DNA of 64,000 nucleotides from positions 24,226,352 to 24,290,351 of the forward strand of contig OZ025257.1 of NCBI GenBank assembly GCA_964019135.1. The letters run 5' to 3'. Source of the stretch: Arenicola marina. Its lineage: Eukaryota > Annelida > Polychaeta > Arenicolidae. The notes below the pieces were generated by a model. The model worked only from the letters and a program-made list of their open reading frames with translations, made no database searches and had not been told where the DNA came from. This document shows, piece by piece, positions 29,701-64,000 of the stretch. How positions within the stretch are numbered: position 1 is the stretch's first letter; the number at the start of each line of letters is the position of its first letter. Both the position numbers and the translations under genes were made by a program.

Positions 29701-32700
29701 AGTGTCTATGCAGAGAGGGACGACCCCCCCCCCATCACCCCCAAATCACACCCTCTCTTTCATTCGGAGGCCGGTATTTACTACACTTGTGACTGCAGAG
29801 TGGAACCTGTCCATGTGACTCAATCATTGCCGGCGATTGTCGCTTTGAATTAATAACCTTGTACGCCAAGATGAGGTATTTCCATGCAGATGTACCGGTC
29901 CGAAAACAAAAATGCAGCAGGCTGCTTGAATTATACCGGCACTGTCCATCTTGTTTTAATATCACTAGTACACGAACATATAAAAACGAGGCTGGTCTGA
30001 CGCTGGCTTGATCACGTGATCATCAACCCTTGACCCTCGTCGACACAGACCACATACTAGTATTATAGAACATAGCAGAACAGTATATTGTATCGTATGG
30101 CCTCATGCATAGTTCATTGAAAATTCGGTAACTTTACGAGAAACAATTTTCTATATAGCATAGCTTGATTCCCACATCAAATTAGTTTTATTATGTCAGG
30201 GTTTTTGATTTGCATTAGCTGCAAAAAGTAGTAGCTGATATTAGTATTGGAACAGGGTGGTAAATCCTGAGTTCTAAGATTATATAAGCAGCAGGTATGT
30301 AAGATATCGTCTTCTATAATATTTAAATTAAGTGTTTTGCAGATGATACATGATCTTTCCAGTACCGGAGTGTTGTCTCTTCTCCCTCTTTCAATGCATA
30401 AATCATGATTGGAACATCTAAATTTCGTTAGAGCTATTATATATTTTCTAATATTTATGACACCTTTCAGGTTGTAGAAGACTCTTGAAATTTGAATAAG
30501 TTCTTAACTTAAGGTTTTCTGCAAACATCGCTATTCCACGTTTGCTTGGCACAGTCTCTTACTGTCACTAGTATTACAGCTTCGTTTGCGAAGCAAATGA
30601 AATTGTATTTTTATTACATCATTATAAGATCTACTATCGGTATCATTACTCTTACCGAGTGATCTTCAGTCCTTGATCAACGGATTTCCCTTTAACACTA
30701 TTTTATCCTCAGCTGCCTCTACGAACGTCGTCATGAGAGTGGACAGATTAAAAGTCTCATCATGTACTCATAATAAGTTGATAACTGGGAGTTCGTGCAA
30801 ATATTTGTTTTTCGTAGAAAAAGGGGTGTCAATAGTATAATTGTAGATTCTTTCGCGACTCAGGGATAAAATCGAGGATATAGCGGTACGATATATGTTT
30901 GTATATTAGTAAGGGCATGATTTGTGTTCGTTACTGCAATTAAGATTATCTTTTGCAAATAAGGCTTTATATATGCGAATGAACAGTTCATTGCGTAATA
31001 TAGTTGGTTGTGAACTATTCAATTTTCACTATTAATGTGTTAATTTAGGCTATTTTTATAATTAATTTATAAAAGTAAGATATATACAAAAACGTATGCA
31101 TTATACATTTCAGCACAGCATTGCCTACTATTACGTGACAATGTGAATGACTGTATTGCATATTACAACTACCGGAATAATAGTGGACAAACATCGTGGG
31201 TGGGCAATAAAATAAGTTATAGGTTAAGGTAAGTAATACAAATATAGCTATAATTCTAATACGAAAACATGTATCAAGATACTGCGGAATAACCACAGTG
31301 ATATTATATCCACGTCTCTTCATCTACAGAGTGATGGTGAAGATGAAGAACCTACTGAACGGGAACACGTGGCTCTGGGAGAGAGGGAAGTTTATGAACA
31401 GAAGGTACCTCATGCAGGTGAGTCTATGAAATACATGACACAGAGCTTCACAAATGAGATGCTGTGAGAGCCGAAGTATTCCCCTACAGGGTTCTCTCCG
31501 AACTCCCGACTCTCATCTGCGTTCGACGCGACGTCGGTTTAGAGAGATTGAACTTTATTTCGCGACCGATATATCAATAGAAATCGTGTTAACGTCGTAC
31601 AAATAAGTCATCTAGACGATATAGAGGCCATACAAGAAATAGTTTATGTCCTCATCAAATACTAGCATTAATTATGTCCCACTTTCGATTAGTATCTATA
31701 ATTATAATAGCCCGTTTCCTTCTATTAATTTCTGCATCGCCAAAACAAATAGCTACAGATTAACAGGTCCAGGCCCCATATTGCATACAATCTCATTTCA
31801 TTGTACCCAGTGGTTTCTTGGCCTTCAATCTTCATATACACAAATGTAACACAAAATATTCCGTTTCAAATCATTACCAACTCAAAAAGAAAAGCCAAAA
31901 GAACAATTCCCCGTTTATCGCCCATCAACAGGACATGTACCAGAGATGGCTGGACGGAGACGAGGACGTGTCGTCCATCAGCAAGGAGCAGGACCCCTTC
32001 TGGGAGCCGGCGGAGGACGTGTTGATCGGCACGTGTAACGTCTTCCTCCAGTCCCTGGCCTACGCCCTGGACTTCGACGACCGCCTGGCCATCACGGACT
32101 ACAAGGGGCAGGAGGAGGGTTTCCTCTACGTCAACGTGACGCCCTGCATGGCCAACGGCAAGCCCATGGACGAGGACTACTTCGTGGACAACCCGGCAGA
32201 CCTCCTCGGCAGACCTTTTTATTTCAAGGTTGGCGCGAGTTCCCTGTGTTTAATATGTAAGTTACAAGATTGACTGAAGACACCCGCCAACGCTTCGGTG
32301 CTATAATAATTAGCATGCGTATCCGAGTTGGCGAGCGAGGTGCCAGACGTATTCCTTTATTTAATGCTTCAGTTATCATACAATTTACGCCCGCGATAAG
32401 AAAACTGACTGGAGACTCCCATTAACAATTTCTACTATCCAATATTTACTATCCGCTCTCCCCCCCCCCTCCCCCTCCTCATACTCCCACCCTCCAACCA
32501 TCAGGTGACGGTGCGCAGTGCCGAGGTGAACAAGGCGCGCTTCTCCAAGGGCATTCAGGTCAAGTACCGCTGCTACAAGGACAAGACCCACACGGAGACG
32601 CAGATGATGAAAGGGTCGCTGTCGCCAGAGTTCAACCACACCAAGGTTTTTTCCTTCCCGTCCGTCGATCAGGAGCTGCTCGACTTCTTCGAGTCCGGCT

Positions 32701-47413: not shown

Positions 47414-48145
47414 TTAATTAGTGAAAATGAGGCTAAATCTGTTTTCATACATCGTGAATGCTTTTTGTATAAACCTTGCTAAGTAGATTAAACATGTTTT
47501 TTCCTCGGAAATCATAATACATAAAAAACTCCTAATATCATATGTCGTTAAATATCTTGTAGGAAAATAATTATTTCGGAGATTGTCATACAATAGGCAT
47601 TTCATTAATATATGGAACTCGTCAAGAGAAGAAACAGTTTCATGTTGTAGGCAATATTTACAGATAGAGTTTTCTCCCCTGCAGTACGAACTTGTCCATA
47701 GCACCCTACATCTGAATCTGGCTAAGATCTGCCGTAGTCTAAAATCCTCGAGAAGACACAAGTATGGTTCGCGTATGAGCAACTTCTTATATTCTTTACA
47801 ATTCGTCAGGTCTGTCTTACTCTGCCAGTTCTGGCAAGCGCACTCAATTACCCTTTTGGAAAATTGTTCAATTAAGGCCTCAGGATCTCCAAGTTGTTGC
47901 TGAAACCAGGCATAGCCGAATCCATAAGAGAAAAGTAAGTGCTTGAGTTTAGAAACCCAGGTCATACGACCAGCTTCTGTCAGCCTAAATAACATATTGC
48001 AAGTACATTTCGTAAGTCTGGTTTCAGGCATTCTTAACAATTTCACCCAGTATTTAACACAACTAATTGTACACCTTACCCTTAAAGGTAATCTACCGCA
48101 CTCACCATAAACCGCTGATTTTGGTGTACTCCATGGTACGCCCAA
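47414..48145 (-). pseudogene. LINE ORF2 C-terminal domain fragment
   Basis: 243 codons, including VPWSTPKSAVYGECGRLPL, YWVKLLRMP and a Cys-rich CKYCLQHETVSSLDEFHIL (CxxC...H...H-like). These are seen after the reverse transcriptase in many invertebrate LINEs. It is separated from the upstream fragment by a stop and frameshift around 48146-48202, so it is inactive. Confidence 0.8.
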
Positions 48146-48202
48146 GACATATTAAAAAAATTTAGTGTCCACACGTTCTATACAATCTTTGACATCGTAA
48201 CC

Positions 48203-48535
48203 CTAAACTTCTGCACCGTATGTAAGAATGGGTACTATCATTTTGTCAAAGAGATCAAAATATCTCTCTACCTCCAAACCACCACAGTTTTTTGAAAATT
48301 CTTCAATAATTGTCACTGTTTTACCCGCTTGGGAGGCGAGAGTTTTTTGAGCCACAGACCACATCAATTTGGAAGAAAATATGATACCTAAATATTTATA
48401 GTAAGACACAACCTGTAGAGGCTTTCCCTTGTAGTACCATTTTTCATTGCTTCTCAAGGGTTCACCATTCCTAAATACAATAATCTTACTTTTATCCACA
48501 TTAGTAGTGAGAGCTGAGCTTTTTGCTACCCCCAT
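48203..48535 (-). pseudogene. LINE reverse transcriptase C-terminal fragment
   Basis: 110 codons with NVDKSKIIVFRNGE, WYYKGKPLQVVSYYKYLGI and IFSSKLMWS, the thumb-proximal 'KT.vvVFR...YLGv.f' block of LINE reverse transcriptases. The catalytic FADD box would lie upstream and is absent (truncated). Confidence 0.85.
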
Positions 48536-48564
48536 GACCCCCTCACCCCTCCCCCCCCCCCTGT

Positions 48565-48931
48565 GGTCGTGCTATAGTGCGACCGAAAATTTTGAAATAT
48601 CGGTTTGAAAATGCCCGCTCACGAGTTAATGAGGTCATTAATTTTTGTCAAAAGTCTTTGTTTCCGTGCTATAGCACGGGGTATAATTAGCATAAATTAG
48701 TATGTAAATAGGTATATTCAACAAGGTTATTAATCATTGTGTGTCTTATGTTCTCGTGCTATAGTACGAGTGAATGAAGAAGACATATTGTTTGAAGTCT
48801 TCAATCTGCGATCAAGTACTATTATGAATAGGTAATAGATGAACAAGTCCTTTTGCTTTGATGAAACAGTAAATCATTTAATCGCTATAGATATCGCCAT
48901 GTAAACTGTATATTCTCGCGTTACAGTACGA
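48565..48931. repeat. Four spaced short palindromes, CGTGCTATAGYACG type
   Basis: GGTCGTGCTATAGTGCGACC (48565-48584), CCGTGCTATAGCACGG (48664-48679, perfect), CTCGTGCTATAGTACGAG (48753-48770) and the weaker TCGCGTTACAGTACGA (48916-48931). They lie between the LINE and the virus-like element. Confidence 0.85.
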
Positions 48932-49196
48932 TTAATCGTCAATGATACGTGTATATAATCAATGTAATCAGGCCATGTGAGATCCTATAAGCTGTGTAAT
49001 ATGTTTGTTTGTTTGTAAAAACCATAGGATATGTTTCGAGTAAACCATATTAACGCAAATACAATCATCCATTTTGCAATTTTTTTATTCCTATATCACT
49101 ACATGAATACCATTACCCGCTACAACATCTATCGTGGTCAAAAACTGAGTATCACAAAAATATACACCTTGATATCATATTATTATACATGACAAT

Positions 49197-49535
49197 TTAG
49201 TCAATGGGTAAAGAGGTCTTGCACGCGGTTTGCATAAAACGCGGGGACTGCCGGCGAGTGATACGCGGAAAGTGAACAGATTGGAAATTATGAATATAGT
49301 TGTCATTGCACATGGTGTGTGGAGACCAATACTCTCGATAGATTCGTGACATGGAGTAATTTCGACATTTGAAATATAAGTAAAATAGACAGTATTCTCC
49401 GCATACATCTGTGCCAAGTGACTGCCACACCGCTCTCATGGGTTGTTGAATAAAATATTCCAAGTGTTTAAGGTTCACATAGGCACGAATTGGTTTTCCT
49501 AGTGAGTCAAACATCTCAATTTTCCCCGATGACAC
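49197..49535 (-). CDS. Adenovirus/Polinton-type cysteine protease, C-terminal part (left arm)
   Basis: Seen: SSGKIEMFDSLGKP near the start and VWQSLGTDVCGEYCLFYLYF in the middle. In adenovirus-type (peptidase family C5-like) proteases the order is His, an acidic or Asn residue, Gln and catalytic Cys. FDSLG is the acidic block, and Q..GTDVCGEYC gives the Gln and Cys. The His-containing N-terminal part is not in this frame. The frame opens just after a TAA with no ATG before residue 8, so the N-terminus is spliced in from elsewhere, frameshifted or lost. Such proteases mature capsid proteins in the viruses and Polintons that carry them. It lies 145 bp downstream of the PC4-like gene in the same orientation. 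Confidence 0.65.
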   Translation of the reverse strand: MSSGKIEMFDSLGKPIRAYVNLKHLEYFIQQPMRAVWQSLGTDVCGEYCLFYLYFKCRNYSMSRIYREYWSPHTMCNDNYIHNFQSVHFPRITRRQSPRFMQTACKTSLPID

Positions 49536-49680
49536 TAAACTTTAAATGTCACACGTACGTATACTAATCACCAATTATATATATATATATATATTCATCT
49601 ACACCAGTGTAACTTTCACCATAATTCAGGATTGGTCATCCATAAATACATCAAATGTAACTTAGTGGATACATAAACAT

Positions 49681-50385
49681 TTAGGATAGATGTATCTTAT
49701 CCAAACCTTTCGGGTAACATTCAACACAGTCAAAGTACCCCTCCTGATTTTGGTGAGATGACATACAATCAACCAACTCGGTGAGTTCCGGAACACACTT
49801 ATCATGGATCGTGTTGAGATGGAACTTAAGTAAATTCCACTGCTTTAAATCGAGAGTAATTCCTTTTCGGGTCGGCACGGGCGTATCTTGTGTATCCGGC
49901 AACCAGTATTTTCGAATATCTAGAAACTGGCCACGGTGCAGGACCTCGGCCATCACCAAACCTCCGAGATGATATTTCCGTGGATTGGTGGTCTGTTGGA
50001 ATTCTCGATCTATGGTGTTTGTCAATGTCTGCAACATCTTCCAGCGGGTTGTGATGAGATTGACACCCACTTTTGTAGGGTAATCACGGCCGTTTTCTTG
50101 ACATACCCACTTTCTAATATCAAAGCGTAAAACGTCTTTGAAATACTGAACAGTTAAATAGACATTTTCTCCGATGCACTCTTGACAGCGTATATCGTGA
50201 GTTTGCTCGGAAGTACACTGCGTATTCTCCCACTTTCTTTTCTTGGCCAGCGGGATGAGTGGTAGCCGATTGGAGGGAGCGAAGCCCGCTGTTGTCTTGT
50301 GGGAAGTCATGTCGTTGTGGTGAAAAGATGGAGACCGCCCGTACATTATATTCACAAAGTCCCTCTCCACCTCCTCGTCATCCAC
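49681..50385 (-). CDS. Protein with two PC4/p15-like DNA-binding repeats (left arm)
   Basis: 234 codons from a GTG, or 221 from the first in-frame ATG at 50346. Two repeats share the PC4 pattern: FDIRKWVCQENGRDYPTKVG then VNLITTRWKMLQ (about residues 88-122), and FLDIRKYWLPDTQDTPVPTR then KGITLDLKQWNLLK (about 155-192). The 'DIR-W/Y ... PT+KGI.L...QW..L' signature is that of the transcription coactivator PC4/SUB1 single-stranded DNA-binding fold. CxxC pairs (RCQEC at 67-71; DCVECYPKG near the end) suggest a small zinc site. The N-terminus holds a basic KKRKW stretch that could act as a nuclear signal. The role is inferred as DNA binding in viral transcription or replication. Confidence 0.65.
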   Translation of the reverse strand: MDDEEVERDFVNIMYGRSPSFHHNDMTSHKTTAGFAPSNRLPLIPLAKKRKWENTQCTSEQTHDIRCQECIGENVYLTVQYFKDVLRFDIRKWVCQENGRDYPTKVGVNLITTRWKMLQTLTNTIDREFQQTTNPRKYHLGGLVMAEVLHRGQFLDIRKYWLPDTQDTPVPTRKGITLDLKQWNLLKFHLNTIHDKCVPELTELVDCMSSHQNQEGYFDCVECYPKGLDKIHLS

Positions 50386-50534
50386 CCACTTGGGACGTGT
50401 CTGAACATGCTTTGGCGAGGTGTAAAAATAGCATCACGACTGACGTCATACATCGGCGTGGCTTTGTCATCTGTTTAAAGATAGACAGAGGGGCGTGGCC
50501 AACAGGCTTTGTACGCACGGGTAATCGCTGTAAA

Positions 50535-50645
50535 TGAGCGATCAATCACTTTTTTAATCCCAACAACTCAAGCCCGCGTTATAATAAGACTGAGTCGCTT
50601 CACTACGTTTTATAATAATTGGTTCATGCACTACTGTGTGTGAAT
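50535..50645 (-). promoter_or_regulatory. Shared upstream module (left arm)
   Basis: It contains paired TTATTATAA(A)CG elements separated by GTGAAGCGACTCAGTC (read on the minus strand), 150-260 bp upstream of the PC4-like frame. It is present again at 62622-62732 and, diverged, at 57022-57130. Its conservation in the old copy suggests a promoter or packaging/replication signal (inference). Confidence 0.45.
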
Positions 50646-50864
50646 TGTGTGATTGATGTTAAAGGTCACAGAAAAGGGCCGTGGATGTTTTAAAACTCAT
50701 CAAAATGCTACCTTTGTGAAAGAGCGGTGACTTTGAGGACTTGTCTGCGAGCGACAGATGTTTCGTGGTCTTTGTCTTGATGTGTAGAGTTGCAGCGACA
50801 CTTATTTATTTTCGGTCGGTTATTTTTTTAAATGCGCGTTTGAATTCACCGGTGGGAGGGCAGT

Positions 50865-50892
50865 TAGCCCGCGGGCGCGCGAGCGCGCTACA
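50865..50892. repeat. GC-rich near-palindrome GCGGGCGCGCGAGCGCGC (left arm)
   Basis: Alternating G/C with self-complementarity, in otherwise AT-rich sequence; mirrored at 62375-62402. Confidence 0.6.
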
Positions 50893-51014
50893 CGATAGGG
50901 GGCGGGGCTTGGACCGAGACAAATATCGATTTTTTTTTTCCAAGCCCCTCAGCACCGCGCTGGCCGTCACGACCTACTGATTTTCAAAAGTTCGGGCGAG
51001 CCAGCGAGCCAGAA

Positions 51015-51209
51015 TCAGCGGAGCGTCATGTGGTTTTTGGCGGGGTATTGGCCGACGGTCTGTGTACGCACAAGTTTGGGAGTGTCGCTGTGATATGAAC
51101 TTTGTGAAATATCGTAAGGAATAATCACCTTAATTTTAGTTTCGGTTGTAACATTATTCAACTGTCGCCGATGTAATAAGGATGCATCTATAAACGTTCG
51201 AACAAACAA
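51015..51209 (-). CDS. Small hypothetical open frame (left arm)
   Basis: 64 codons with a mixed composition (TTETKIKVIIPYDISQSSYH). No homologue recognised. Presence in both arms adds no support because the arms are near-identical. Confidence 0.2.
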   Translation of the reverse strand: MFVRTFIDASLLHRRQLNNVTTETKIKVIIPYDISQSSYHSDTPKLVRTQTVGQYPAKNHMTLR

Positions 51210-52045
51210 GTCGTGGAGACAAGCGCCCGGTTGGCGTCCTTTTGTCGCGAGGGAGAAGAGTTATGACAGTTGTTTGATGAGTCAGTCTATTATTTCGATA
51301 GTAATAAGCGGGCTTTATGCTCTTCACCTCAGGTATTATTTATCTGCAAGCCATTAATACGTCGGCCGGAAAGGTCAATGGGTTAACCTCTTCAACAACC
51401 GCCTGTGGGCATTTAATTATACCTTCCCCTCCTAGATAACTAGGCGTGGCAGCTGATTACTATGTGGTGGCAGTAAAATTCACTGTTGTATATGATACGA
51501 GGCGTCATTGTGTACTGATGGAAACATAAGAAGCTTGTGTTATAGGTCCACCCTTCCCCCTGCCCCCCTTTCTCTCCCCCATCTATTCACTGACGATTCT
51601 GAACTCGTGACTCCCATGCTACACCTGCCCTCTTCGTCAACGATGCAGTTTTAAAATCATAATGGAGTGAATGGTGACGTCATTGACATTTAGTCATCTG
51701 TTTGTTCAGGACCTATATAAAACGGGAGAGATGAGTTAATTGGTTGTTTCTTTATGTTGGCAACCCCTTGACCTCTGTAGCCGACGTTTTGTTTGCTTGC
51801 ATATGCATCCAAAAGAAGGTAGGGAGGGTGAAGGATATAACATCAATCGTCTATGTCATTGCTATACACGTTCTTGGGGAGTGTCTGTGGGTTTTTTATT
51901 GCATTGGAGTCCGACGGCACGTTTAAACGAGTTTGGGGAAAGAGCGACTGGCTCTCTCCATACACCATACACTCACAATATTCCTATTAGGTTATTTTGC
52001 TGTTACTCCGTCAAGTGAAAACTATTATGGTGCATGACCGCTTTT
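51210..52045. other. Left arm, uncharacterised
   Basis: It includes the segment GGTTAACCTCTTCAACA (51379-51395), of which diverged relatives occur in the spacer at about 56710 and 56830. The plus-strand frame at 51740-52018 is not convincing. Confidence 0.5.
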
Positions 52046-52282
52046 CTAGTTCATTAAAAGAAGCAGTTGCATTTGCTTGTGACATCTGCAACCAACGTCG
52101 CATTCATATAACTCATACACCGTTAAAGGAATTATTCTGTAAGTTTGAACATTGTTACTCGTTAAGTCAGTGTAAAGTAACATATATGTTAAAAATGTAT
52201 TGTATTGAACTTTATTTGTTTTTATTGCACTTTTAAAATCAGCTAAAGTAAAAACACATACTAACATAAATTTTACCAACAA
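52046..52282 (-). CDS. Small hypothetical open frame (left arm)
   Basis: 78 codons, with TLADFKSAIKT and TYRIIPLTVYELYECDVGCR. The mirrored frame at 60984-61220 differs by two residues (N/D and Y/N). No homologue recognised. Confidence 0.25.
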   Translation of the reverse strand: MLVKFMLVCVFTLADFKSAIKTNKVQYNTFLTYMLLYTDLTSNNVQTYRIIPLTVYELYECDVGCRCHKQMQLLLLMN

Positions 52283-52654
52283 TAACCGTATCCATCCATG
52301 TCAAGGAACGTAGTCAACAATTAACTTTAGCGTAATTTAAATAACTCACAAATTTCATATGTCACCACGTCACAACTCATTCGTAGGTTTCAACAAGACT
52401 TTAAACCATTTGCAAAAGTGATTATAAAAGTGAATGCATCAACTTTAAAAATGATATTTTGCGTATTGTATGTATGAAATATTCGTTTTCCGTCACGTGT
52501 TTATATATTTTTTAAACTATCAAGTGTTACAGTAACACAATAAGTTATGCATGTATCATATATTTGTGAAACATCCATTTACCTTATTGCAATACGTCTC
52601 GGTTTACACAAACACTTACAACTTTGCAACTAGTCTTGTAGAATGTCATGTTTC

Positions 52655-52716
52655 ATAAAGTTAACAAGTTATTGAATCAACAGATTGACGCGTGTTACGC
52701 GTGCGTGTATCGCGAA
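52655..52716. repeat. 62-bp repeat with ACGCGT core, unit 1 (left arm)
   Basis: ATAAAGTTAACAAGTTATTG, AATCAACAGATTGACGCGTG and TTACGCGTGCGTGTATCGCG. A near-identical unit lies 1269 bp away at 53924-53985. Confidence 0.85.
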
Positions 52717-53923
52717 TGTGAACTGAATTAAAAGTCGTCATCACGTTAACGAATTAGGAAGTGAGTATAAACACTGCCATGTAATTTTTAGTGAGTAGCA
52801 TTTGCGGTAAAAGAACTTCGCTATTGAAATAGCGTTAGCAACAGGCAAGTACTAATTCTACACAATCATGACAAGTTCTTAAATTTTATTTAGTGAACAT
52901 TGCAATTCCGAAAACAACGATATTTGTGGTGACAACATATCTGCAATGAAGTAAGAGAGAAGTAATTAGACATAAAAAATAGCGAAGCCAACGTGATGTA
53001 TGTGCGAATTTAATGAATTGAATTCACCGGTATAATCAGATACATTCTAAACTACGGTGCGTAGAGAAGTATTGAATAGACTCATGACTGAGAAGAGTTT
53101 ATCAAATGAATAACATTTGGAACATAACACAACATATGGATAATATAAACCTAATACTTTTGATTACAATAAAACTCACGCGAGTATTCTGAGAGAACAT
53201 GTTGTAAACGGAATAAATCATCAGTTTGTAACCATACAAAGAAGTGAATGAAACATATCATTTACTTTATCTCGTAACATACATTCTAAACTTAGAAAGA
53301 GGATCGTATTAAGTAGTTGTCATAGCAAACACTAACATAAACATAACGAATGAGTTATCTGTCTTTTTTGGTATATCTTGGTGCAATGTATGACGTATCT
53401 AACTCGTGTTTTCTCTCTGCGTAGAAGGTATGTCAAAACTGGGAGTATGTATCCTCTTTTTTTTTTATACATCAAGAAGTTAAACAGATAGAATAGAATT
53501 CTCATGAGTTGTGATGTCAAGGACAATGAATCAGTATTCAGTTTGGTTTTATTACACATATCCCAAAACAGTTTTCTTACTCGTACTCAACCAGATTATG
53601 TAGGAATGTGTGGTAGTGTAATTTTTAGAACCCTTAACTTCCTACATGAATTGATACTTCTAGTATCTAATTAATCTTACCTTAAGCTATCCTGAAAGAA
53701 ATTTCAGGGTCCACTCGTCTCCTGCGAGAATGTAACAATATGTTTAGTTGATTTATAACATTTAGGTTTTATCTACATGAAACGAATGCTTATTTATTTT
53801 TTATTTTTAAACTATTAACATTTGTACTGAGTTTAACACATTTTACTTACCACTCTCTTTCCTCTGGCGCACAGTAAACCGTTATACACTTACACCTATG
53901 ACTAGTTACAAATGGAAGTATTA

Positions 53924-53985
53924 ATAAAGTTAACAAGTTATTGAATCAACAGATTGACGCGTGTTACGCATGTGTATATCGCGAA
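53924..53985. repeat. 62-bp repeat with ACGCGT core, unit 2 (left arm)
   Basis: Same unit as 52655-52716 with a few substitutions (TTACGCATGTGTATATCGCG). Confidence 0.85.
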
Positions 53986-55301
53986 CATGAAACGTTTGAT
54001 CCGCAAGTGCCATCACGTATGATATGTTAACCGGTTTGGTGGACACATGTGAAACCAAAAGGTAGAATTCTGTCAGTTGCATGCCGTCATCGAGTTTGTT
54101 ACATTCGTGTAATTTGAAAGACAACGAAGAAGAAAGATGTCACTTTTTGTATTCAACATAACATCAAGTTTATACTTAATGTAACATGTGTGAAATAAAT
54201 ATCATGTCACATCTATGTACTCAATAGTCAACCGCAAAAGTAAAAAGCTGTAAGTATTGTGTGTGTATTCACTGTAACATATGTCTGTGGATAGTAATCA
54301 TTTGCATACGATTTTACTTATTGTAGATGACACAACGATGAATAACCTCCGTTGAACGAACGGTGTACGAGAAAATTAAATGACTTGTAAATAATATAGA
54401 TGTGATCCGTACTACACATGTGTCACAATTGACATGATCGTTTGATAGAACAAATATCGGTCTTGTCTTTTTCAAGTGAAGTAAATCGGGTTTGCAGACT
54501 GTTAAGAAAGTAACCGAGTGCGTAATACAATATATATATTTAATGAAGTAATATGTTTGGGAAAAGAGTCGTTATATAGTTTCGCTGTATGTTAACATAC
54601 TTGAACACAAGAAAACGGTAACAAAAGTTAATGAATGATTGAATGCGAATATTTTCTTTGATATGTTTTGGATGAATTAGTTAACATTAATGCTACTGAC
54701 TAACAACAACAACCACGGGAACCACCATAACCATAATATCGCCAACTGTTTGAGTCAAAGGACAAAGTGTGCATGTGAAAACTTGTTTTATAAATGTAAT
54801 GGTAATACCAAAGATCTCTATACATCTCCAATGCGACATGAGTCACGATTAATGTTTTGAAACAGTGTTTTTATATTAAATCGAGTTCACGTAAGCACAG
54901 TCAGCAGTTTTGATTATATGGTTATCAATGTGTTTACATTTGTATATGTATATCGCATCAGTCAGTCGGTAAACAACGTGGACTGTAAAAAATCACACCA
55001 AAAAAGGGTGGATGACAAACTTTCAGGAAAACGATATGTTTGTAAGTTAACTTCTGAAGCGTGGTGAGCTGTATCGGACAATGCGGCAGCCCTCAACAGA
55101 GCACTGAATGTGATAAACCTGCGAAGAACTTACACCCTCACAAAATTTCTGTTGGTTGACTGCTGCATTCGAGCAGAGTATGCGTAAATAAATATAGGTG
55201 TTACGATATTACTGCGTTACGTTAAAGGGGGGGGGGTGAAGAAATACGATGGATTTCAGATTAAATACCGTTTATTAACATCAAGAATATATAGTATAAA
55301 C

Positions 55302-55334
<33 letters not shown>

Positions 55335-55342
55335 TAAAATGA

Positions 55343-56056
55343 TTATATATATGGATCCAGCGGAGTATCCAATTGAATAAGTTGCATTAAAATGTCGTCT
55401 TCAGAGCACAGTGGAGGATATGGTGACGGCGATCTAGGCGCCGCAGTTCCGGGTGCACCTGGGCGATTTCTTATAAAGATCCGTTGTGGTTCGTCCTCTT
55501 CATCCGACGAAATAGTGATTACTTCTTCTCGGCGCAGGACTCGCCCGATCGGTATCTCCAGTTGTGTGTTTTCGCCTCGCCGCAATAAAGTTGGAGATGG
55601 CGTCGGCGAGGGCATCCTAATTTCAATAGGGAGGCGGCGACCTCCCTCGTAGGCCAGACGGATGGCTGCCGGGAACTGGTCTGGAGCTGGCGTCGGCGAG
55701 GGTATGCTACTTTCGATGGGGAGGCGGCGACCTCCCTCGTAGGCCAGACGGATGGCTGCCGGGAACTGGTCTGGAGCTGGCGTCGGCGTGGGTATGCTAC
55801 TTTCGATGGGGAGGCGGCGACCTCCCTCGTAGGCCAGACGGATGGCTGCCGTGAACTGCTCTGGCCGCAGGATGAGGAAGGGCGGCTGGATTTGTGCAAT
55901 TTGCTGTGGTTGTCCAGTTGACAAACCGATTCCGGGGAATTGTTCGAGTGGACACGGCTGGTGATATTGACCGTCTTGGTCATCCATGCCTGTGTATGCA
56001 CCGTTACTGTAGCTAAACATACCGGACCCGGTGAACCAATTGTTGATTGGTGGCAC
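55343..56056 (-). CDS. Spacer protein with 30-residue repeats and acidic SUMO-interaction-like motif
   Basis: 237 codons, first codon GTG, first ATG 13 codons in. Three near-identical 90-bp repeats code QFPAAIRLAYEGGRRLPIES followed by a SIPxPTPAPD stretch (residues about 67-160). Then comes VITISSDEEDEP, a hydrophobic VITI run followed by serines and acids, as in SUMO-interaction motifs, and a Pro-rich tail ending CSEDDILMQLIQLDTPLD. The C-terminal 45 codons lie inside the inverted repeat; the rest lies in the unique spacer. No family recognised. Composition suggests a disordered regulatory or activation protein (inference). Confidence 0.5.
   Translation of the reverse strand: MPPINNWFTGSGMFSYSNGAYTGMDDQDGQYHQPCPLEQFPGIGLSTGQPQQIAQIQPPFLILRPEQFTAAIRLAYEGGRRLPIESSIPTPTPAPDQFPAAIRLAYEGGRRLPIESSIPSPTPAPDQFPAAIRLAYEGGRRLPIEIRMPSPTPSPTLLRRGENTQLEIPIGRVLRREEVITISSDEEDEPQRIFIRNRPGAPGTAAPRSPSPYPPLCSEDDILMQLIQLDTPLDPYI
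55631..55860. repeat. 90-bp tandem repeat, about 2.6 copies
   Basis: GGGAGGCGGCGACCTCCCTC and GTAGGCCAGACGGATGGCTG recur at 90-bp spacing with very few changes. The repeat is in-frame within the spacer protein. Confidence 0.95.
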
Positions 56057-56113
56057 TTCTTGACAGCGAACACGAACTATTTACGTTGTGCTATTTAACC
56101 AATATGACGTGAA

Positions 56114-56320
56114 GTGCCGCACAGAGCTAAAAATCGCACTGACCACTGGTACGATAGTAGTGGTTCTGTTCCCACCACATTTATTTACCCTGGGTCAACG
56201 CTCTTTCTCGCTCTAGAACTGAACACTTACAATGCCAGAGCGCCCATTGAGAGGCACTACTATATGGTTTTTTCGAGCACCGAAATAGATGACCAGACTG
56301 TCTGGCCGGCGTGTTTCTGA
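56114..56320 (+). CDS. Short hypothetical open frame in the spacer
   Basis: 68 codons with protein-like composition (GSTLFLALELNTYNARAPIE, then RHYYMVFSSTEIDDQ). It begins at GTG, just after an in-frame TGA and divergent from the repeat-bearing protein. It could be an exon or a fragment. No homologue recognised. Confidence 0.25.
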   Translation: MPHRAKNRTDHWYDSSGSVPTTFIYPGSTLFLALELNTYNARAPIERHYYMVFSSTEIDDQTVWPACF

Positions 56321-56639
56321 CAATAGCGTTACACCATCGACAATAAAAAATACGGCTCACCTGGATCGATGACGTTTGTTTTCAAACCGTGGCACTTGAT
56401 ACAGAACCAGCTGGATGGCAGCTCTTCCGGTGGTGGGGGTAGATATTGTCGAACAGCGGCGGTACTGTCTGTCATATCTTCTTATTTTCGTTCTTCGTGC
56501 GTTTCGTGTAACTACCGGTATCATCAGACAAATTGTCAAGTTGTCCTGACTCCAAAATCCGGGGGCCCTTATGTACACCCACAACCACCTACGCCCCCCT
56601 GGAAGAGCACACCCAGTAATGGCTTTGTCTCACCTCCCC

Positions 56640-57130
56640 CGGTCTTGTGCAGGGCGTTCTGCCGGGAGAGCGTGAGAGGGGACGACAGACGGGCAGTTTT
56701 TTATGTTGAAGAGGTTAACCAATCCACCTCCCTGTCCGACTTAATAATAACAATGTTGAACGACCGTTTTTGACTTTACCAACCTTCTGCATTGTTCAGG
56801 GCAATCTAGCGGGAGAGGTCGTTTATGTTAAAGAGGTTAACCAATGCACTTTCTGGTCAATAAAATCTTATGCCAAATGTTCATGTGCAATGCAGACAAC
56901 TGTATTACTCTATTTCATAGTTCACCGCACGTTGATCCATAACTTAAAGATAATTGCAGCCATCTGGTCATCATCTCTACAGCTGCTCGAGCTTGTATTG
57001 CACTGTATTGCATGAATCCGCGAACAAGTTATTATAAAACGCAGTGAAGCGACTCAGTCGCATTATAACACGAGCTTGAGGGTTGTCGGGGTTAACAGAG
57101 TAATTGGTCGCAGGCTCATTTACAGTGATT
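56640..57130 (+). repeat. Diverged older copy fragments of the element's upstream region
   Basis: GTTGAAGAGGTTAACCAATC (about 56705) and GTTAAAGAGGTTAACCAATG (about 56828) are relatives of the right arm's GTTGAAGAGGTTAACCCATT (61869). AGTTATTATAAAACGCAGTG and AAGCGACTCAGTCGCATTAT (57026-57065) match the upstream module at 62650. All are on the plus strand, same order as the right arm. Confidence 0.7.
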
Positions 57131-57419
57131 ATCTTCACCTACGGGGCAGATGACAGAGGGGGGGGGGGGGTGAAGATATAGTGAGTATGTGGGAAGGGGA
57201 GAGGGTGAGAGGGAAGGTGGTTCACGATGGACGTGATAGGGGGCGTGGAGTAGGCGTGAGATGCGGTGACCTTGGCGTCACCGAAGCCTAACGGGGGGCC
57301 GCCTACATCCCAACTCAAATTTACGGTTGCCGCCCGTCCACGACCGTCCACTGACACTTTTCAGGCGTTTCGATAGAGGGTGTTAGCCGCCGGGGAATGA
57401 ATTTACAGTTTAAAGCAAT
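57131..57419. other. Spacer segment, nothing recognised
   Basis: A poly-G tract (57158-57170) and GGGAGAGGGTGAGAGGG-type low complexity. The minus-strand frame at 57139-57357 is Pro/His-rich and not convincing. Confidence 0.5.
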
Positions 57420-57763
57420 ATACCTACATGCGCCATCTTAGATTTTTTACATTTCAGAATCAAGACTAAAAGTATCTCAGAATGATGATGCATATATCTT
57501 TCATAGTTCTGAAAGTCTGTAAAACAACAATTTCAACATAAAACTGCACGGTTTATTTATATCGCGCGCGGACGTGATAGCGAGCCGCGAACGACATCAC
57601 ACACAAAATACCGAAGAGCGAACAGGCGCGCAGGGATATAAAGCCGGCCACCAACTTCTGCTCCGGTGACCAAATTGCTTCTCTCCGGATAGCCCACAGG
57701 CTTTCAGGATTTAAATTTAAGACAGAATATACTTATTTGACATGGGGAAGAGGTTGGTAATAC
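57420..57763 (-). repeat. Dispersed repeat, copy 2, at the inner edge of the right arm
   Basis: Reverse complement of the repeat at 20340-20675 in kinesin intron 7. It ends about 30 bp from where the right arm begins (57792). Confidence 0.8.
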
Positions 57764-57791
57764 AAAACATTACGGAATATATTGCTTTAAC

Positions 57792-57932
57792 GGAGAAATC
57801 ACCCAGGTGCACCCGGAACTGCGGCGCCTAGATCGCCGTCACCATATCCTCCACTGTGCTCTGAAGACGATATTTTAATGCAACTTATTCAATTGGATAC
57901 TCCGCTGGATTCATATATATATAATCATTTTA

Positions 57933-57960
<28 letters not shown>
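57792..57960 (+). pseudogene. Truncated C-terminus of the spacer protein (right arm)
   Basis: It codes the last part only (GAPGTAAPRSPSPYPP then LCSEDDILMQLIQLDTPLD), beginning at the arm edge. The downstream stop seen in the left copy is altered in the (TA)n tract. Confidence 0.75.
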
Positions 57961-57965
<5 letters not shown>

Positions 57966-59281
57966 GTTTAAACTATATATTCTTGATGTTAATAAACGGT
58001 ATTTAATCTGAAATCCATCGTATTTCTTCCCCCCCCCTTTAACGTAACGCAGTAATATCGTAACACCTATATTTATTTACGCATACTCTGCTCGAATGCA
58101 GCAGTCAACCAACAGAAATTTTGTGAGGGTGTAAGTTCTTCGCAGGTTTATCACATTCAGTGCTCTGTCGAGGGCTGCCGCATTGTCCGATACAGCTCAC
58201 CACGCTTCAGAAGTTAACTTACAAACATATCGTTTTCCTGAAAGTTTGTCATCCACCCTTTTCTGGTGTGATTTTTTACAGTCCACGTTGTTTACCGACT
58301 GACTGATGCGATATACATATACAAATGTAAACACATTGATAACCATATAATCAAAACTGCTGACTGTGCTTACGTGAACTCGATTTAATATAAAAACACT
58401 GCTTCAAAACATTAATCGTGACTCATGTCGCATTGGAGATGTATAGAGATCTTTGGTATTACCATTATTACATTTATAAAACAAGTTTTCACATGCACAC
58501 TTTGTCCTTTGACTCAAACTGTTGGCGAGATTATGGTTATGGTGGTTCCCGTGGTTGTTGTTGTTAGTCAGTAGCATTAATGTTAACTAATTCATCCAAA
58601 ACATATCAAAGAAAATATTCGCATTCAATCATTCATTAACTTTTGTTACCGTTTTCTTGTGTTCAAGTATGTTAACATACAGCGAAACTATATAACGACT
58701 CTTTTCCCAAACATATTACTTCATTAAATATATATATTGTATTACGCACTCGGTTACTTTCTTAACAGTCTGCAAACCCGATTTACTTCACTTGAAAAAG
58801 ACAAGACCGATATTTGTTCTATCAAACGATCATGTCAATTGTGACACATGTGTAGTACGGATCACATCTATATTATTTACAAGTCATTTAATTTTCTCGT
58901 ACACCGTTCGTTCAACGGAGGTTATTCATCGTTGTGTCATCTACAATAAGTAAAATCGTATGCAAATGATTACTATCCACAGACATATGTTACAGTGAAT
59001 ACACACACAATACTTACAGCTTTTTACTTTTGCGGTTGACTATTGAGTACATAGATGTGACATGATATTTATTTCACACATGTTACATTAAGTATAAACT
59101 TGATGTTATGTTGAATACAAAAAGTGACATCTTTTTTCTTCGTTGTCTTTCAAATTACACGAATGTAACAAACTCGATGACGGCATGCAACTGACAGAAT
59201 TCTACCTTTTGGTTTCACATGTGTCCACCAAACCGGTTAACATATCATACGTGATGGCACTTGCGGATCAAACGTTTCATG

Positions 59282-59343
59282 TTCGCGATATACACATGCG
59301 TAACACGCGTCAATCTGTTGATTCAATAACTTGTTAACTTTAT
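59282..59343. repeat. 62-bp repeat with ACGCGT core, unit 2 (right arm)
   Basis: Mirror of 53924-53985. Confidence 0.85.
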
Positions 59344-60550
59344 TAATACTTCCATTTGTAACTAGTCATAGGTGTAAGTGTATAACGGTTTACTGTGCGC
59401 CAGAGGAAAGAGAGTGGTAAGTAAAATGAGTTAAACTCAGTACAAATGTTAATAGTTTAAAAATAAAAAAAAATAAGCATTCGTTTCATGTAGATAAAAC
59501 CTAAATGTTATAAATCAACTAAACATATTGTTACATTCTCGCAGGAGACGAGTGGACCCTGAAATTTCTTTCAGGATAGCTTAGGGTAAGATTAATTAGA
59601 TACTAGAAGTATCAATTCATGTAGGAAGTTAAGGGTTCTAAAAATTACACTACCACACATTCCTACATAATCTGGTTGAGTACGAGTAAGAAAACTGTTT
59701 TGGGATATGTGTAATAAAACCAAACTGAATACTGATTCATTGTCCTTGACATCACAACTCATGAGAATTCTATTCTATCTGTTTAACTTCTTGATGTATA
59801 AAAAAAAAAGAGGATACATACTCCCAGTTTTGACATACCTTCTACGCAGAGAGAAAACACGAGTTAGATACGTCATACATTGCACCAAGATATACCAAAA
59901 AAGACAGATAACTCATTCGTTATGTTTATGTTAGTGTTTGCTATGACAACTACTTAATACGATCCTCTTTCTAAGTTTAGAATGTATGTTACGAGATAAA
60001 GTAAATGATATGTTTCATTCACTTCTTTGTATGGTTACAAACTGATGATTTATTCCGTTTACAACATGTTCTCTCAGAATACTCGCGTGAGTTTTATTGT
60101 AATCAAAAGTATTAGGTTTATATTATCCATATGTTGTGTTATGTTCCAAATGTTATTCATTTGATAAACTCTTCTCAGTCATGAGTCTATTCAATACTTC
60201 TCTACGCACCGTAGTTTAGAATGTATCTGATTATACCGGTGAATTCAATTCATTAAATTCGCACATACATCACGTTGGCTTCGCTATTTTTTATGTCTAA
60301 TTACTTCTCTCTTACTTCATTGCAGATATGTTGTCACCACAAATATCGCTGTTTTCGGAATTGCAATGTTCACTAAATAAAATTTAAGAACTTGTCATGA
60401 TTGTGTAGAATTAGTACTTGCCTGTTGCTAACGCTATTTCAATAGCGAAGTTCTTTTACCGCAAATGCTACTCACTAAAAATTACATGGCAGTGTTTATA
60501 CTCACTTCCTAATTCGTTAACGTGATGACGACTTTTAATTCAGTTCACAT

Positions 60551-60612
60551 TCGCGATACACGCACGCGTAACACGCGTCAATCTGTTGATTCAATAACTT
60601 GTTAACTTTATG
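60551..60612. repeat. 62-bp repeat with ACGCGT core, unit 1 (right arm)
   Basis: Mirror of 52655-52716. Confidence 0.85.
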
Positions 60613-60983
60613 AAACATGACATTCTACAAGACTAGTTGCAAAGTTGTAAGTGTTTGTGTAAACCGAGACGTATTGCAATAAGGTAAATGGATGTTTCAC
60701 AAATATATGATACATGCATAACTTATTGTGTTACTGTAACACTTGATAGTTTAAAAAATATATAAACACGTGACGGAAAACGAATATTTCATACATACAA
60801 TACGCAAAATATCATTTTTAAAGTTGATGCATTCACTTTTATAATCACTTTTGCAAATGGTTTAAAGTCTTGTTGAAACCTACGAATGAGTTGTGACGTG
60901 GTGACATATGAAATTTGTGAGTTATTTAAATTACGCTAAAGTTAATTGTTGACTACGTTCCTTGACATGGATGGATACGGTTA

Positions 60984-61220
60984 TTGTTGGTAAAATTTAT
61001 GTTAGTATGTGTTTTTACTTTAGCTGATTTTAAAAGTGCAATAAAAACAGATAAAGTTCAATACAATACATTTTTAACAAATATGTTACTTTACACTGAC
61101 TTAACGAGTAACAATGTTCAAACTTACAGAATAATTCCTTTAACGGTGTATGAGTTATATGAATGCGACGTTGGTTGCAGATGTCACAAGCAAATGCAAC
61201 TGCTTCTTTTAATGAACTAG
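60984..61220 (+). CDS. Small hypothetical open frame (right arm)
   Basis: Mirror of 52046-52282, 78 codons, two residue differences. No homologue recognised. Confidence 0.25.
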   Translation: MLVKFMLVCVFTLADFKSAIKTDKVQYNTFLTNMLLYTDLTSNNVQTYRIIPLTVYELYECDVGCRCHKQMQLLLLMN

Positions 61221-62056
61221 AAAAGCGGTCATGCACCATAATAGTTTTCACTTGACGGAGTAACAGCAAAATAACCTAATAGGAATATTGTGAGTGTATG
61301 GTGTATGGAGAGAGCCAGTCGCTCTTTCCCCAAACTCGTTTGAACGTGCCGTCGGACTCCAATGCAATAAAAAACCCACAGACACTCCCCAAGAACGTGT
61401 ATAGCAATGACATAGGCGATTGATGTTATATCCTTCACCCTCCCTACCTTCTTTTGGATGCATATGCAAGCAAACAAAACGTCGGCTACAGAGGTCAAGG
61501 GGTTGCCAACATAAAGAAACAACCAATTAACTCATCTCTCCCGTTTTATATAGGTCCTGAACAAACAGATGACTAAATGTCAATGACGTCACCATTCACT
61601 CCATTATGATTTTAAAACTGCATCGTTGACGAAGAGGGCAGGTGTAGCATGGGAGTCACGAGTTCAGAATCGTCAGTGAATAGATGGGGGAGAGAAAGGG
61701 GGGCAGGGGGAAGGGTGGACCTATAACACAAGCTTCTTATGTTTCCATCAGTACACAATGACGCCTCGTATCATATACAACAGTGAATTTTACTGCCACC
61801 ACATAGTAATCAGCTGCCACGCCTAGTTATCTAGGAGGGGAAGGTATAATTAAATGCCCACAGGCGGTTGTTGAAGAGGTTAACCCATTGACCTTTCCGG
61901 CCGACGTATTAATGGCTTGCAGATAAATAATACCTGAGGTGAAGAGCATAAAGCCCGCTTATTACTATCGAAATAATAGACTGACTCATCAAACAACTGT
62001 CATAACTCTTCTCCCTCGCGACAAAAGGACGCCAACCGGGCGCTTGTCTCCACGAC

Positions 62057-62251
62057 TTGTTTGTTCGAACGTTTATAGATGCATCCTTATTACATCGGCG
62101 ACAGTTGAATAATGTTACAACCGAAACTAAAATTAAGGTGATTATTCCTTACGATATTTCACAAAGTTCATATCACAGCGACACTCCCAAACTTGTGCGT
62201 ACACAGACCGTCGGCCAATACCCCGCCAAAAACCACATGACGCTCCGCTGA
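62057..62251 (+). CDS. Small hypothetical open frame (right arm)
   Basis: Mirror of 51015-51209, 64 codons, identical product. Confidence 0.2.
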   Translation: MFVRTFIDASLLHRRQLNNVTTETKIKVIIPYDISQSSYHSDTPKLVRTQTVGQYPAKNHMTLR

Positions 62252-62374
62252 TTCTGGCTCGCTGGCTCGCCCGAACTTTTGAAAATCAGTAGGTCGTGAC
62301 GGCCAGCGCGGTGCTGAGGGGCTTGGAAAAAAAAAAATCGATATTTGTCTCGGTCGAAGCCCCGCCCCCTATCG

Positions 62375-62402
62375 TGTAGCGCGCTCGCGCGCCCGCGGGC
62401 TA
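62375..62402. repeat. GC-rich near-palindrome (right arm)
   Basis: Mirror of 50865-50892 (GCGCGCTCGCGCGCCCGC). Confidence 0.6.
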
Positions 62403-62621
62403 ACTGCCCTCCCACCGGTGAATTCAAACGCGCATTTAAAAAAATAACCGACCGAAAATAAATAAGTGTCGCTGCAACTCTACACATCAAGACAAAGACC
62501 ACGAAACATCTGTCGCTCGCAGACAAGTCCTCAAAGTCACCGCTCTTTCACAAAGGTAGCATTTTGATGAGTTTTAAAACATCCACGGCCCTTTTCTGTG
62601 ACCTTTAACATCAATCACACA

Positions 62622-62732
62622 ATTCACACACAGTAGTGCATGAACCAATTATTATAAAACGTAGTGAAGCGACTCAGTCTTATTATAACGCGGGCTTGAG
62701 TTGTTGGGATTAAAAAAGTGATTGATCGCTCA
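62622..62732 (+). promoter_or_regulatory. Shared upstream module (right arm)
   Basis: AATTATTATAAAACGTAGTG, AAGCGACTCAGTCTTATTAT and AACGCGGGCTTGAGTTG lie 150-260 bp before the PC4-like frame. The left arm and the spacer carry relatives. Confidence 0.45.
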
Positions 62733-62881
62733 TTTACAGCGATTACCCGTGCGTACAAAGCCTGTTGGCCACGCCCCTCTGTCTATCTTTAAACAGATGA
62801 CAAAGCCACGCCGATGTATGACGTCAGTCGTGATGCTATTTTTACACCTCGCCAAAGCATGTTCAGACACGTCCCAAGTGG

Positions 62882-63586
62882 GTGGATGACGAGGAGGTGG
62901 AGAGGGACTTTGTGAATATAATGTACGGGCGGTCTCCATCTTTTCACCACAACGACATGACTTCCCACAAGACAACAGCGGGCTTCGCTCCCTCCAATCG
63001 GCTACCACTCATCCCGCTGGCCAAGAAAAGAAAATGGGAGAATACGCAGTGTACTTCCGAGCAAACTCACGATATACGCTGTCAAGAGTGCATCGGAGAG
63101 AATGTCTATTTAACTGTTCAGTATTTCAAAGACGTTTTACGCTTTGATATTAGAAAGTGGGTATGTCAAGAAAACGGCCGTGATTACCCTACAAAAGTGG
63201 GTGTCAATCTCATCACAACCCGCTGGAAGATGTTGCAGACATTGACAAACACCATAGATCGAGAATTGCAACAGACCACCAATCCACGGAAATATCATCT
63301 CGGAGGTTTAGTGATGGTCGAGGTCCTGCCCCGTGGCCAGTTTCTAGATATTCGAAAATACTGGTTGCCGGATACACAAGATACGCCCGTGCCGACCCGA
63401 AAAGGAATTACTCTCGATTTAAAGCAGTGGAATTTACTTAAGTTCCATCTCAACACGATCGATGATAAGTGTGTTCCGGAACTCACCGAGTTGGTTGATT
63501 GTATGTCATCTCACCAAAAACAGGAGGGGTACTTTGACTGTGTTGAATGTTACCCGAAAGGTTTGGATAAGATACATCTATCCTAA
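62882..63586 (+). CDS. Protein with two PC4/p15-like DNA-binding repeats (right arm)
   Basis: 234 codons, intact, mirror of 49681-50385. Five residue differences are visible between the arms (near residues 125, 145, 149, 194 and 214), so the arms are separate sequences and not one read copied. The first in-frame ATG is at 62921, 13 codons after the GTG. The two PC4-like repeats and the Cys pairs are preserved in both copies. Confidence 0.65.
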   Translation: MDDEEVERDFVNIMYGRSPSFHHNDMTSHKTTAGFAPSNRLPLIPLAKKRKWENTQCTSEQTHDIRCQECIGENVYLTVQYFKDVLRFDIRKWVCQENGRDYPTKVGVNLITTRWKMLQTLTNTIDRELQQTTNPRKYHLGGLVMVEVLPRGQFLDIRKYWLPDTQDTPVPTRKGITLDLKQWNLLKFHLNTIDDKCVPELTELVDCMSSHQKQEGYFDCVECYPKGLDKIHLS

Positions 63587-63731
63587 ATGTTTATGTATCC
63601 ACTAAGTTACATTCGATGTATTTATGGATGACCAATCCTGAATTATGGTGAAAGTTACACTGGTGTAGATGAATATATATATATATAATTTGTGATTAGT
63701 ATACGTACGTGTGACATTTAAAGTTTAGTGT

Positions 63732-64000
63732 CATCGGGGAAAATTGAGATGTTTGACTCACTAGGAAAACCAATTCGTGCCTATGTGAACCTTAAACACT
63801 TGGAATATTTTATTCAACAACCCATGAGAGCGGTGTGGCAGTCACTTGGCACAGATGTATGCGGAGAATACTGTCTATTTTACTTATATTTCAAATGTCG
63901 AAATTACTCCATGTCACGAATATATCGAGAGTATTGGTCTCCACACACCATGTGCAATGACAACTATATTCATAATTTCCAATCTGTTCACTTTCCGCGT
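63732..64000 (+). CDS. Adenovirus/Polinton-type cysteine protease (right arm), cut by window end
   Basis: Mirror of 49267-49535. GTDVCGEYCLFYL with the presumed catalytic Cys is intact. The frame runs off the window. The N-terminal His-containing part is again missing. Confidence 0.65.

Follow-up and report, generated by a model that had tools for sequence, protein, structure and literature searches.

At the right-hand end of the stretch of Arenicola marina DNA analysed here, called the window (64,000 bp; G000:C10:24226352-24290351, in an assembly of 867 Mb and 762 contigs), lies a large palindromic element related to the virus-like transposons known as Polintons or Mavericks. Positions 49263-55471 and 57794-64000 are reverse complements of each other, 99.3% identical over 6,215 alignment columns (30 mismatches, 6 gap openings), and they enclose an asymmetric centre of about 2.3 kb (Table 1). 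A preliminary description of this DNA had proposed mirror arms of at least 6.2 kb with scattered differences, a spacer of that size and, as one of two possible layouts, a virus-like element with a long inverted repeat around a short unique region, all of which agrees with the alignment. The inverted repeat continues past the end of the window; sequence beyond 64000 was read, and the right arm ends at G000:C10:24291086, giving a whole element of 16,233 bp (window 48503 to ~64735), of which the inverted repeats, 6,969 bp on the left and 6,942 bp on the right, make up about 86%. The outermost 100-130 bp of the arms hold a variable C-rich tract, in which the arms are less alike.

Table 1. The palindromic element and its surroundings, in window positions
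Feature	Position	Strand	Remarks
Host flank, LINE (long interspersed nuclear element) reverse-transcriptase gene interrupted by the element	47417..48502	-	Named by eye; pieces without Pfam match
Left arm	48503..55471	+	6,969 bp; begins AGTAGT after target duplication CACATT (48497-48502)
Outer arm part	48503..51432	+	Matches the right end of a Polinton copy (G000:C5:9.98 Mb) at 97.8% identity
Homologue of an ordinary Polinton terminal inverted repeat	48503..49534	+	Includes the protease gene's 3' half; such repeats measure 1.0-1.2 kb in three relatives of complete type
Half-protease frame, left	49200..49541	-	114 codons, C-terminal half, without N-terminal half
Double-PC4 protein (MOSUB-like), left	49681..50385	-	234 aa; Pfam PF02229 E 1.6e-15; two PC4-like folds in model; MOSUB fold match
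Inner arm part	51433..54647	+	AT-rich, without long frame
Central frame, 245 codons	55346..56080	-	Three 30-residue repeats; start in centre, end in left arm
Centre, asymmetric	55472..57793	.	From the arm alignment
MITE-like (miniature inverted-repeat transposable element) inserted repeat	57418..57789	.	Inverted ends, TTAA site; ~85% copy at 20314-20674
Candidate template-switch junction	57784..57805	.	15-bp near-match AGAAATC[A/G]CCCAGGT
Right arm, window part	57794..64000	-	735 bp more outside the window, to G000:C10:24291086 (window-equivalent 64735)
Double-PC4 protein, right	62882..63586	+	Five amino-acid differences from the left copy
Half-protease frame, right mirror	63728..64000	+	Cut by the window end

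Each arm had been described as encoding a protein with two PC4 domains and an adenovirus/Polinton-type protease. The PC4 frame is open in both arms, with the five amino-acid differences between them that had been reported, but the protease consists of its C-terminal half only. Structure prediction was run on the PC4 protein and gives two PC4-like folds, with 128 of 234 residues at a predicted local distance difference test score (pLDDT) of 90 or more. The model matches PURA repeats and human PC4 in the PDB, and its best viral fold match is MOSUB of the Branchiostoma lancelet adintovirus (E 4.2e-9, 177 columns, 20% identity), so the protein is not new in kind. Nor is its combination with the protease, which had been thought possibly undescribed, new in kind: besides the MOSUB match, a complete-type Polinton (C10, 11.66-11.68 Mb) has both genes between its ends. 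A profile search found 56 related proteins, with the bivalves Tegillarca granosa, Pecten maximus and Mizuhopecten yessoensis among the named sources, and in an alignment of 44 sequences (that of the window and part of those 56) one H, one N and one C close to the C-terminus hardly vary. P0012, a double-PC4 protein, carries a CARD domain at its N-terminus (Pfam CARD 5.6e-15). In PHROGs the only convincing match of the PC4 protein was to a family of phage transcription regulators (E 1.5e-8). PC4 binds single-stranded DNA as a dimer, and the double protein, whose two domains may correspond to the dimer, probably acts as a single-chain single-stranded-DNA-binding protein.

The half protease is explained by the anatomy of Polinton ends. 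The 195-codon protease in complete relatives has a GRHW region that is missing from the 114-codon frame. This frame has no Pfam match; it is identified by P0057 (34%, E 2.5e-5) and by the full-length gene in the same genome, which itself gives weak matches to Peptidase_C5 (E 0.0053, below the Pfam cut-off) and to S273R of African swine fever virus (E 0.0092). In complete copies the left terminal inverted repeat (TIR) extends into the 195-codon gene, and the right TIR therefore holds only its last half; the part shared with the TIR ends at window 49534. An exon of a spliced gene was also considered for the half protease, and was dropped once carriage by the TIR explained the half gene. Half-genes within Polinton TIRs can thus be mistaken for genes, and caution is needed. 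In IMG/VR scans with the PC4 protein, the half protease and P0057, no relatives were found among virus contigs.

The Polinton copy on C5, to whose right end the outer arm corresponds (pieces L029 and L030), encodes an integrase (rve E 9e-13; chromodomain E 3e-7), an ATPase-like frame (E 2.5e-4, below the Pfam cut-off), a zinc-finger frame, a small PC4-like frame (by eye, without Pfam match) and frames without Pfam match that we take to be capsid-like, and it ends in a double PC4 followed by a half protease. Inverted repeats were aligned in three other copies, over 1,165, 1,021 and 1,192 columns at 99.4, 99.5 and 93.6% identity; two of these (C10 and C6) have kept both ends with exact target duplications and measure 16,441 and 16,417 bp. 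Judged by their frames, the PC4-bearing copies with integrase, PolB, ATPase-like and full protease genes are Polintons. A head-to-head dimer of a whole such element, the other layout offered earlier, does not describe the window element, because only the PC4 end is duplicated, together with ~3.2 kb of other DNA and around a different centre.

The layout is common in the genome, where all counts of matches (PC4, integrase, central frame and arm pieces) are lower bounds. The double-PC4 frame gave 150 scored matches among 284 candidates, 18 of them with an internal stop. When all 150 were paired by PC4 position, at least 34 outward-facing pairs lay less than 30 kb apart, 30 of them separated by 10.4-15.2 kb, and the window copy is one of these ~30; both arms were read at the DNA level in 7 loci. 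One outward pair, at G000:C7:37479942-37503868, is longer than others of its kind (23.9 kb apart). A 3-kb arm piece was found at full or nearly full length in at least 33 places at 96-100% identity, with partial matches besides and many inverted pairs (39 of 577 candidates scored). For an inner-arm piece there are at least 42 matches (40 of 180 candidates scored); the 40 long ones, which entered the pairing analysis, comprise 24 in 12 inverted pairs and 16 unpaired among the matches listed, and none of the 40 has a same-strand neighbour within 20 kb. The remaining 82 PC4 matches are unpaired. In a comparison with 89 of the 103 integrase matches (the 14 weakest omitted), 37 of them show an integrase match 5-20 kb inward, in 25 cases an open frame of 358-367 codons (one with a stop inside the match), in 7 a shorter frame and in 5 of the fragment type; the other 45 have no integrase among those 89 matches. 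Among scored matches, palindromes are about as numerous as their likely helpers (30 pairs against 32 unpaired PC4 matches with an integrase frame).

Two kinds of centre occur between the arms: the 245-codon frame in the window and in the loci C3a and C3b, and an integrase fragment of 87 codons in C7, C12, C20 and C6, which in C7 is 99.6% identical over 225 bp to the Polinton copy on C5. When the 34 pairs were compared with 44 of 114 central-frame and 12 of 103 integrase matches, the central frame lay within 19 of them and an integrase fragment within 6. In the window, the right arm holds only the 3' end of the central frame, which contains three 90-bp tandem repeats (55592-55864). This frame is 97-99% alike in most of the 24 closest matches among those listed, with a stop in three. 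Relatives at ~87-88% occur elsewhere, some of them 7.6-9.3 kb from integrase matches, and this proximity suggests that the frame may have come from another Polinton subfamily. More distant relatives (~64-67% over ~45 residues; open for 243-249 codons, some clustered) were seen at G000:C9:40.81-40.84 Mb and C3:21.3-21.6 Mb.

How the palindromes were inserted can be read from their outer ends. The window element has AGTAGT inward at both ends and CACATT on either side, within the LINE gene, and when the host flanks are joined without the element, a single reverse-transcriptase frame continues across the junction; the LINE itself is decayed, since a stop lies a few codons upstream of the junction and others elsewhere. 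AGTAGT is present at both outer ends of all 7 palindromic loci, and exact 6-bp duplications flank 6 of the 7 (the window and five others, with CACGGA, CTTACC, CGTGAT, GAAGAC and GCTTTG) as well as both complete-type copies tested. Since it is the palindrome as a whole that the duplications flank, and since this layout recurs at many loci, the element was inserted as a palindrome. A tree of a 1.3-kb inner segment (18 arm segments from 11 loci) places the two arms of one insertion as sisters in 7 of 7 loci, with support of at least 0.755 where given, and distances are 0-0.69% within an insertion versus 0.53-1.83% between loci. Sister arms could likewise result from gene conversion if a single Polinton end had been made palindromic after insertion by a chromosomal inversion; the duplications at the outer ends and the repetition of one layout at many loci make such a history scarcely probable. 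An assembly artefact, in which two alleles or a fold-back read were joined head to head, is also very improbable. Arms 99.3% identical are what alleles could give, the evidence is from an assembly only, and one locus, C3b, shows a repeated flank and may hold such an error. However, the same outward PC4 layout recurs at 30 places, the inner segments are locus-specific in 7 of 7 loci, the centres are of two kinds, target duplications lie at the outer ends in 6 of 7 loci tested, and an allelic join would have duplicated host flank too. As far as the assembly shows, then, the palindrome is not the read-through artefact that the preliminary description had argued against.

The inner boundary of the window element differs from that of its relatives. 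As far as AGAAATCACCCAGGT it is like the usual centre. At this point C3b and C7 enter a 422-bp segment; the window instead passes from AGAAATCACCCAGGT into the opposite arm at the site AGAAATCGCCCAGGT, the 422-bp segment is missing, and its arms are 827 bp longer than those of C3a and C3b. A template switch at a short near-match would be expected to produce such a junction. Opposite orientations of the centres were considered as evidence of isomerisation and rejected, a palindrome looking identical when inserted either way.

The window copy seems unable to move by itself. In the frames read there is no gene for a protein-primed PolB, no capsid frame and no packaging ATPase frame; a genome search with an integrase piece gave no match in it, integrase frames of 361 codons occurring in relatives; and of the adenovirus-like cysteine protease the element holds only the C-terminal half per arm. 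No frame for a polymerase, integrase, ATPase, capsid protein or protease being intact in this copy, the enzymes for its replication and integration are most likely supplied by complete Polintons.

The data show ends of Polinton type with 6-bp duplications, insertion in palindromic form, the absence of the enzymes, inner arms that are sisters and a single switch junction, and we give a probability of roughly 0.85 to the element being a non-autonomous Polinton/Maverick derivative, palindromic and multicopy, which inserts as a unit, most likely depends on a helper and most likely originated by fold-back. It carries the right end of a complete Polinton (AGTAGT, the TIR with the half protease, and the double-PC4 gene) at both of its ends in inverted orientation, with a further ~3.2 kb of repeated DNA and a short centre between them. 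Fold-back template switching during strand-displacement, protein-primed replication most likely duplicated one end and later lengthened the arms, and complete Polintons of the same genome would, to judge from the anatomy, provide the replication and integration enzymes in trans. Protein priming is the presumed mode of Polinton replication; direct evidence for this in animals is, to our knowledge, scarce. A young, multicopy family of fold-back derivatives is an expected by-product when templates are switched during strand-displacement replication, and it would preserve a natural record of that process.

Several observations weigh against a Polinton derivative with this history. All evidence comes from one assembly, and from assembled sequence alone. 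Of the 34 PC4 pairs, 9 enclose neither kind of centre among the matches checked; one of these (C6, 28.7 kb) contains an integrase frame of 361 codons and probably represents two elements, or a single one with additional genes. Only short repeats of the inner arm (51433-54647) match the Polinton pieces read, and the source of that segment was not found in them. PolB of the C5 copy (PF03175, E 5e-7) is spread over more than one frame, and this copy is without a left end, the piece L031 matching none of the window, L012, L018 and L029 and containing no 100-codon frame. The C3b palindrome is rearranged and has no exact target duplication. At this locus (L019, G000:C3:19874264-19877012) part of an arm is present once more in inverted orientation, and the left flank recurs in reverse, through rearrangement or assembly error. 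The PC4 ratio of non-synonymous to synonymous polymorphism (pN/pS) is 0.58 (among 17 copies, 28 non-synonymous against 13 synonymous variants; L026 excluded for gaps, L008 and L033 as partial), which is not clearly below neutral. Finally, in the outer segment with PC4 and the half protease, no more than 4 of 7 loci have arms that are each other's nearest neighbour, and the left arm of the window is 0.36% from the C5 Polinton versus 1.00% from its own right arm (sequences covering less than 95% of a segment were excluded from these segment-by-segment distances, and the last three segments hold the window pair alone). Since this arm is closer to a Polinton than to its own partner, either homogenisation has been incomplete or ends have been exchanged between elements. 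From these distances, the arms may have been made alike by replication or conversion, with some apparent exchange of ends between palindromes and complete Polintons.

A further proposal, overlapping with the non-autonomous derivative, which leaves packaging open, is a satellite of an animal Polinton virus, with packaged palindromic linear DNA, and so more than a passive transposon. It would form a lineage with a palindromic linear genome of helper-like length, two MOSUB/PC4 genes and one private gene, which a helper Polinton copies and possibly packages and with which it exchanges ends, in the manner of defective-interfering or virophage-type parasites. Pointing this way are 132 of 150 PC4 matches without internal stop (some partial), the central frame kept at 245 codons in many copies and 97-99% alike, Polinton-type ends and a length near that of complete copies: the six palindromes with exact duplications measure 15.7-18.1 kb, five of them 15.7-16.5 kb, and the two complete-type copies 16.4 kb, which in this small sample would fit a size limit from copying or packaging. 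The longest of the six, on C6 (G000:C6:42752755-42770865; 18.1 kb), has additional sequence beside its centre. On the other side, the lineage is known here from the genome assembly, and the pN/pS of PC4 is not the clearly sub-neutral value of a selected gene; we consider the satellite virus, and the lineage just outlined, possible but doubtful. Either way, the element would parasitise a virus-like transposon within the genome of an animal.

The window has further features besides the element. Exons of a kinesin-3 (KIF1-type) gene, with Pfam Kinesin and KIF1B matches, lie on the plus strand at 21628-32270 (motor and KIF1B exons at 21.6-32.3 kb) and mark the DNA as that of an animal. There are also a 54-bp tandem repeat array, open in more than one frame, at 6670-7507 and an assembly gap of 200 N at 18880-19079. 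The MITE-like repeat of ~370 bp, present in the centre and again at 20314-20674, has the ends AGCAATATA...TATATTGCT and a TTAA site and is piggyBac-like by appearance. Rfam and tRNA scans gave no result.

Among known systems, the element resembles Polintons (polintoviruses) in its AGTAGT ends, 6-bp duplication, right end with PC4 and TIR, and the integrase remnant in some centres. It differs from them in that the window copy has no intact PolB, integrase, ATPase, capsid or protease frame, and in inverted repeats of ~6.95 kb instead of the 1.0-1.2 kb of the three relatives. Adintoviruses are complete viral genomes; the MOSUB-type double-PC4 protein is shared with them by fold, not by sequence tree, whereas the window element carries that protein twice and a central frame only, without the complete gene set. 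That the arms far exceed usual Polinton TIRs, as first described, also agrees with vertebrate Mavericks, for which one study gives TIRs of 46-1,447 bp, 6-bp duplications and (AGT)2 as a reported end motif (PMC8097293). Long TIRs as such have been foreseen, since the filter of a Polinton-like virus study admitted 100 bp to 8 kb (PMC12220804). Among the titles listed in a literature search, which reached few subscription papers, none concerns a palindromic, non-autonomous Polinton family, and a multicopy family of this kind, with inverted repeats making up ~86% of the window copy, is new here. Teratorn of fish, of herpesvirus and piggyBac origin and 41-182 kb long, is unlike it. Galileo/Foldback of Drosophila has long inverted repeats too; it is classed with P elements (PMC3573991), whereas the ends and duplications of the present element are of Polinton type.

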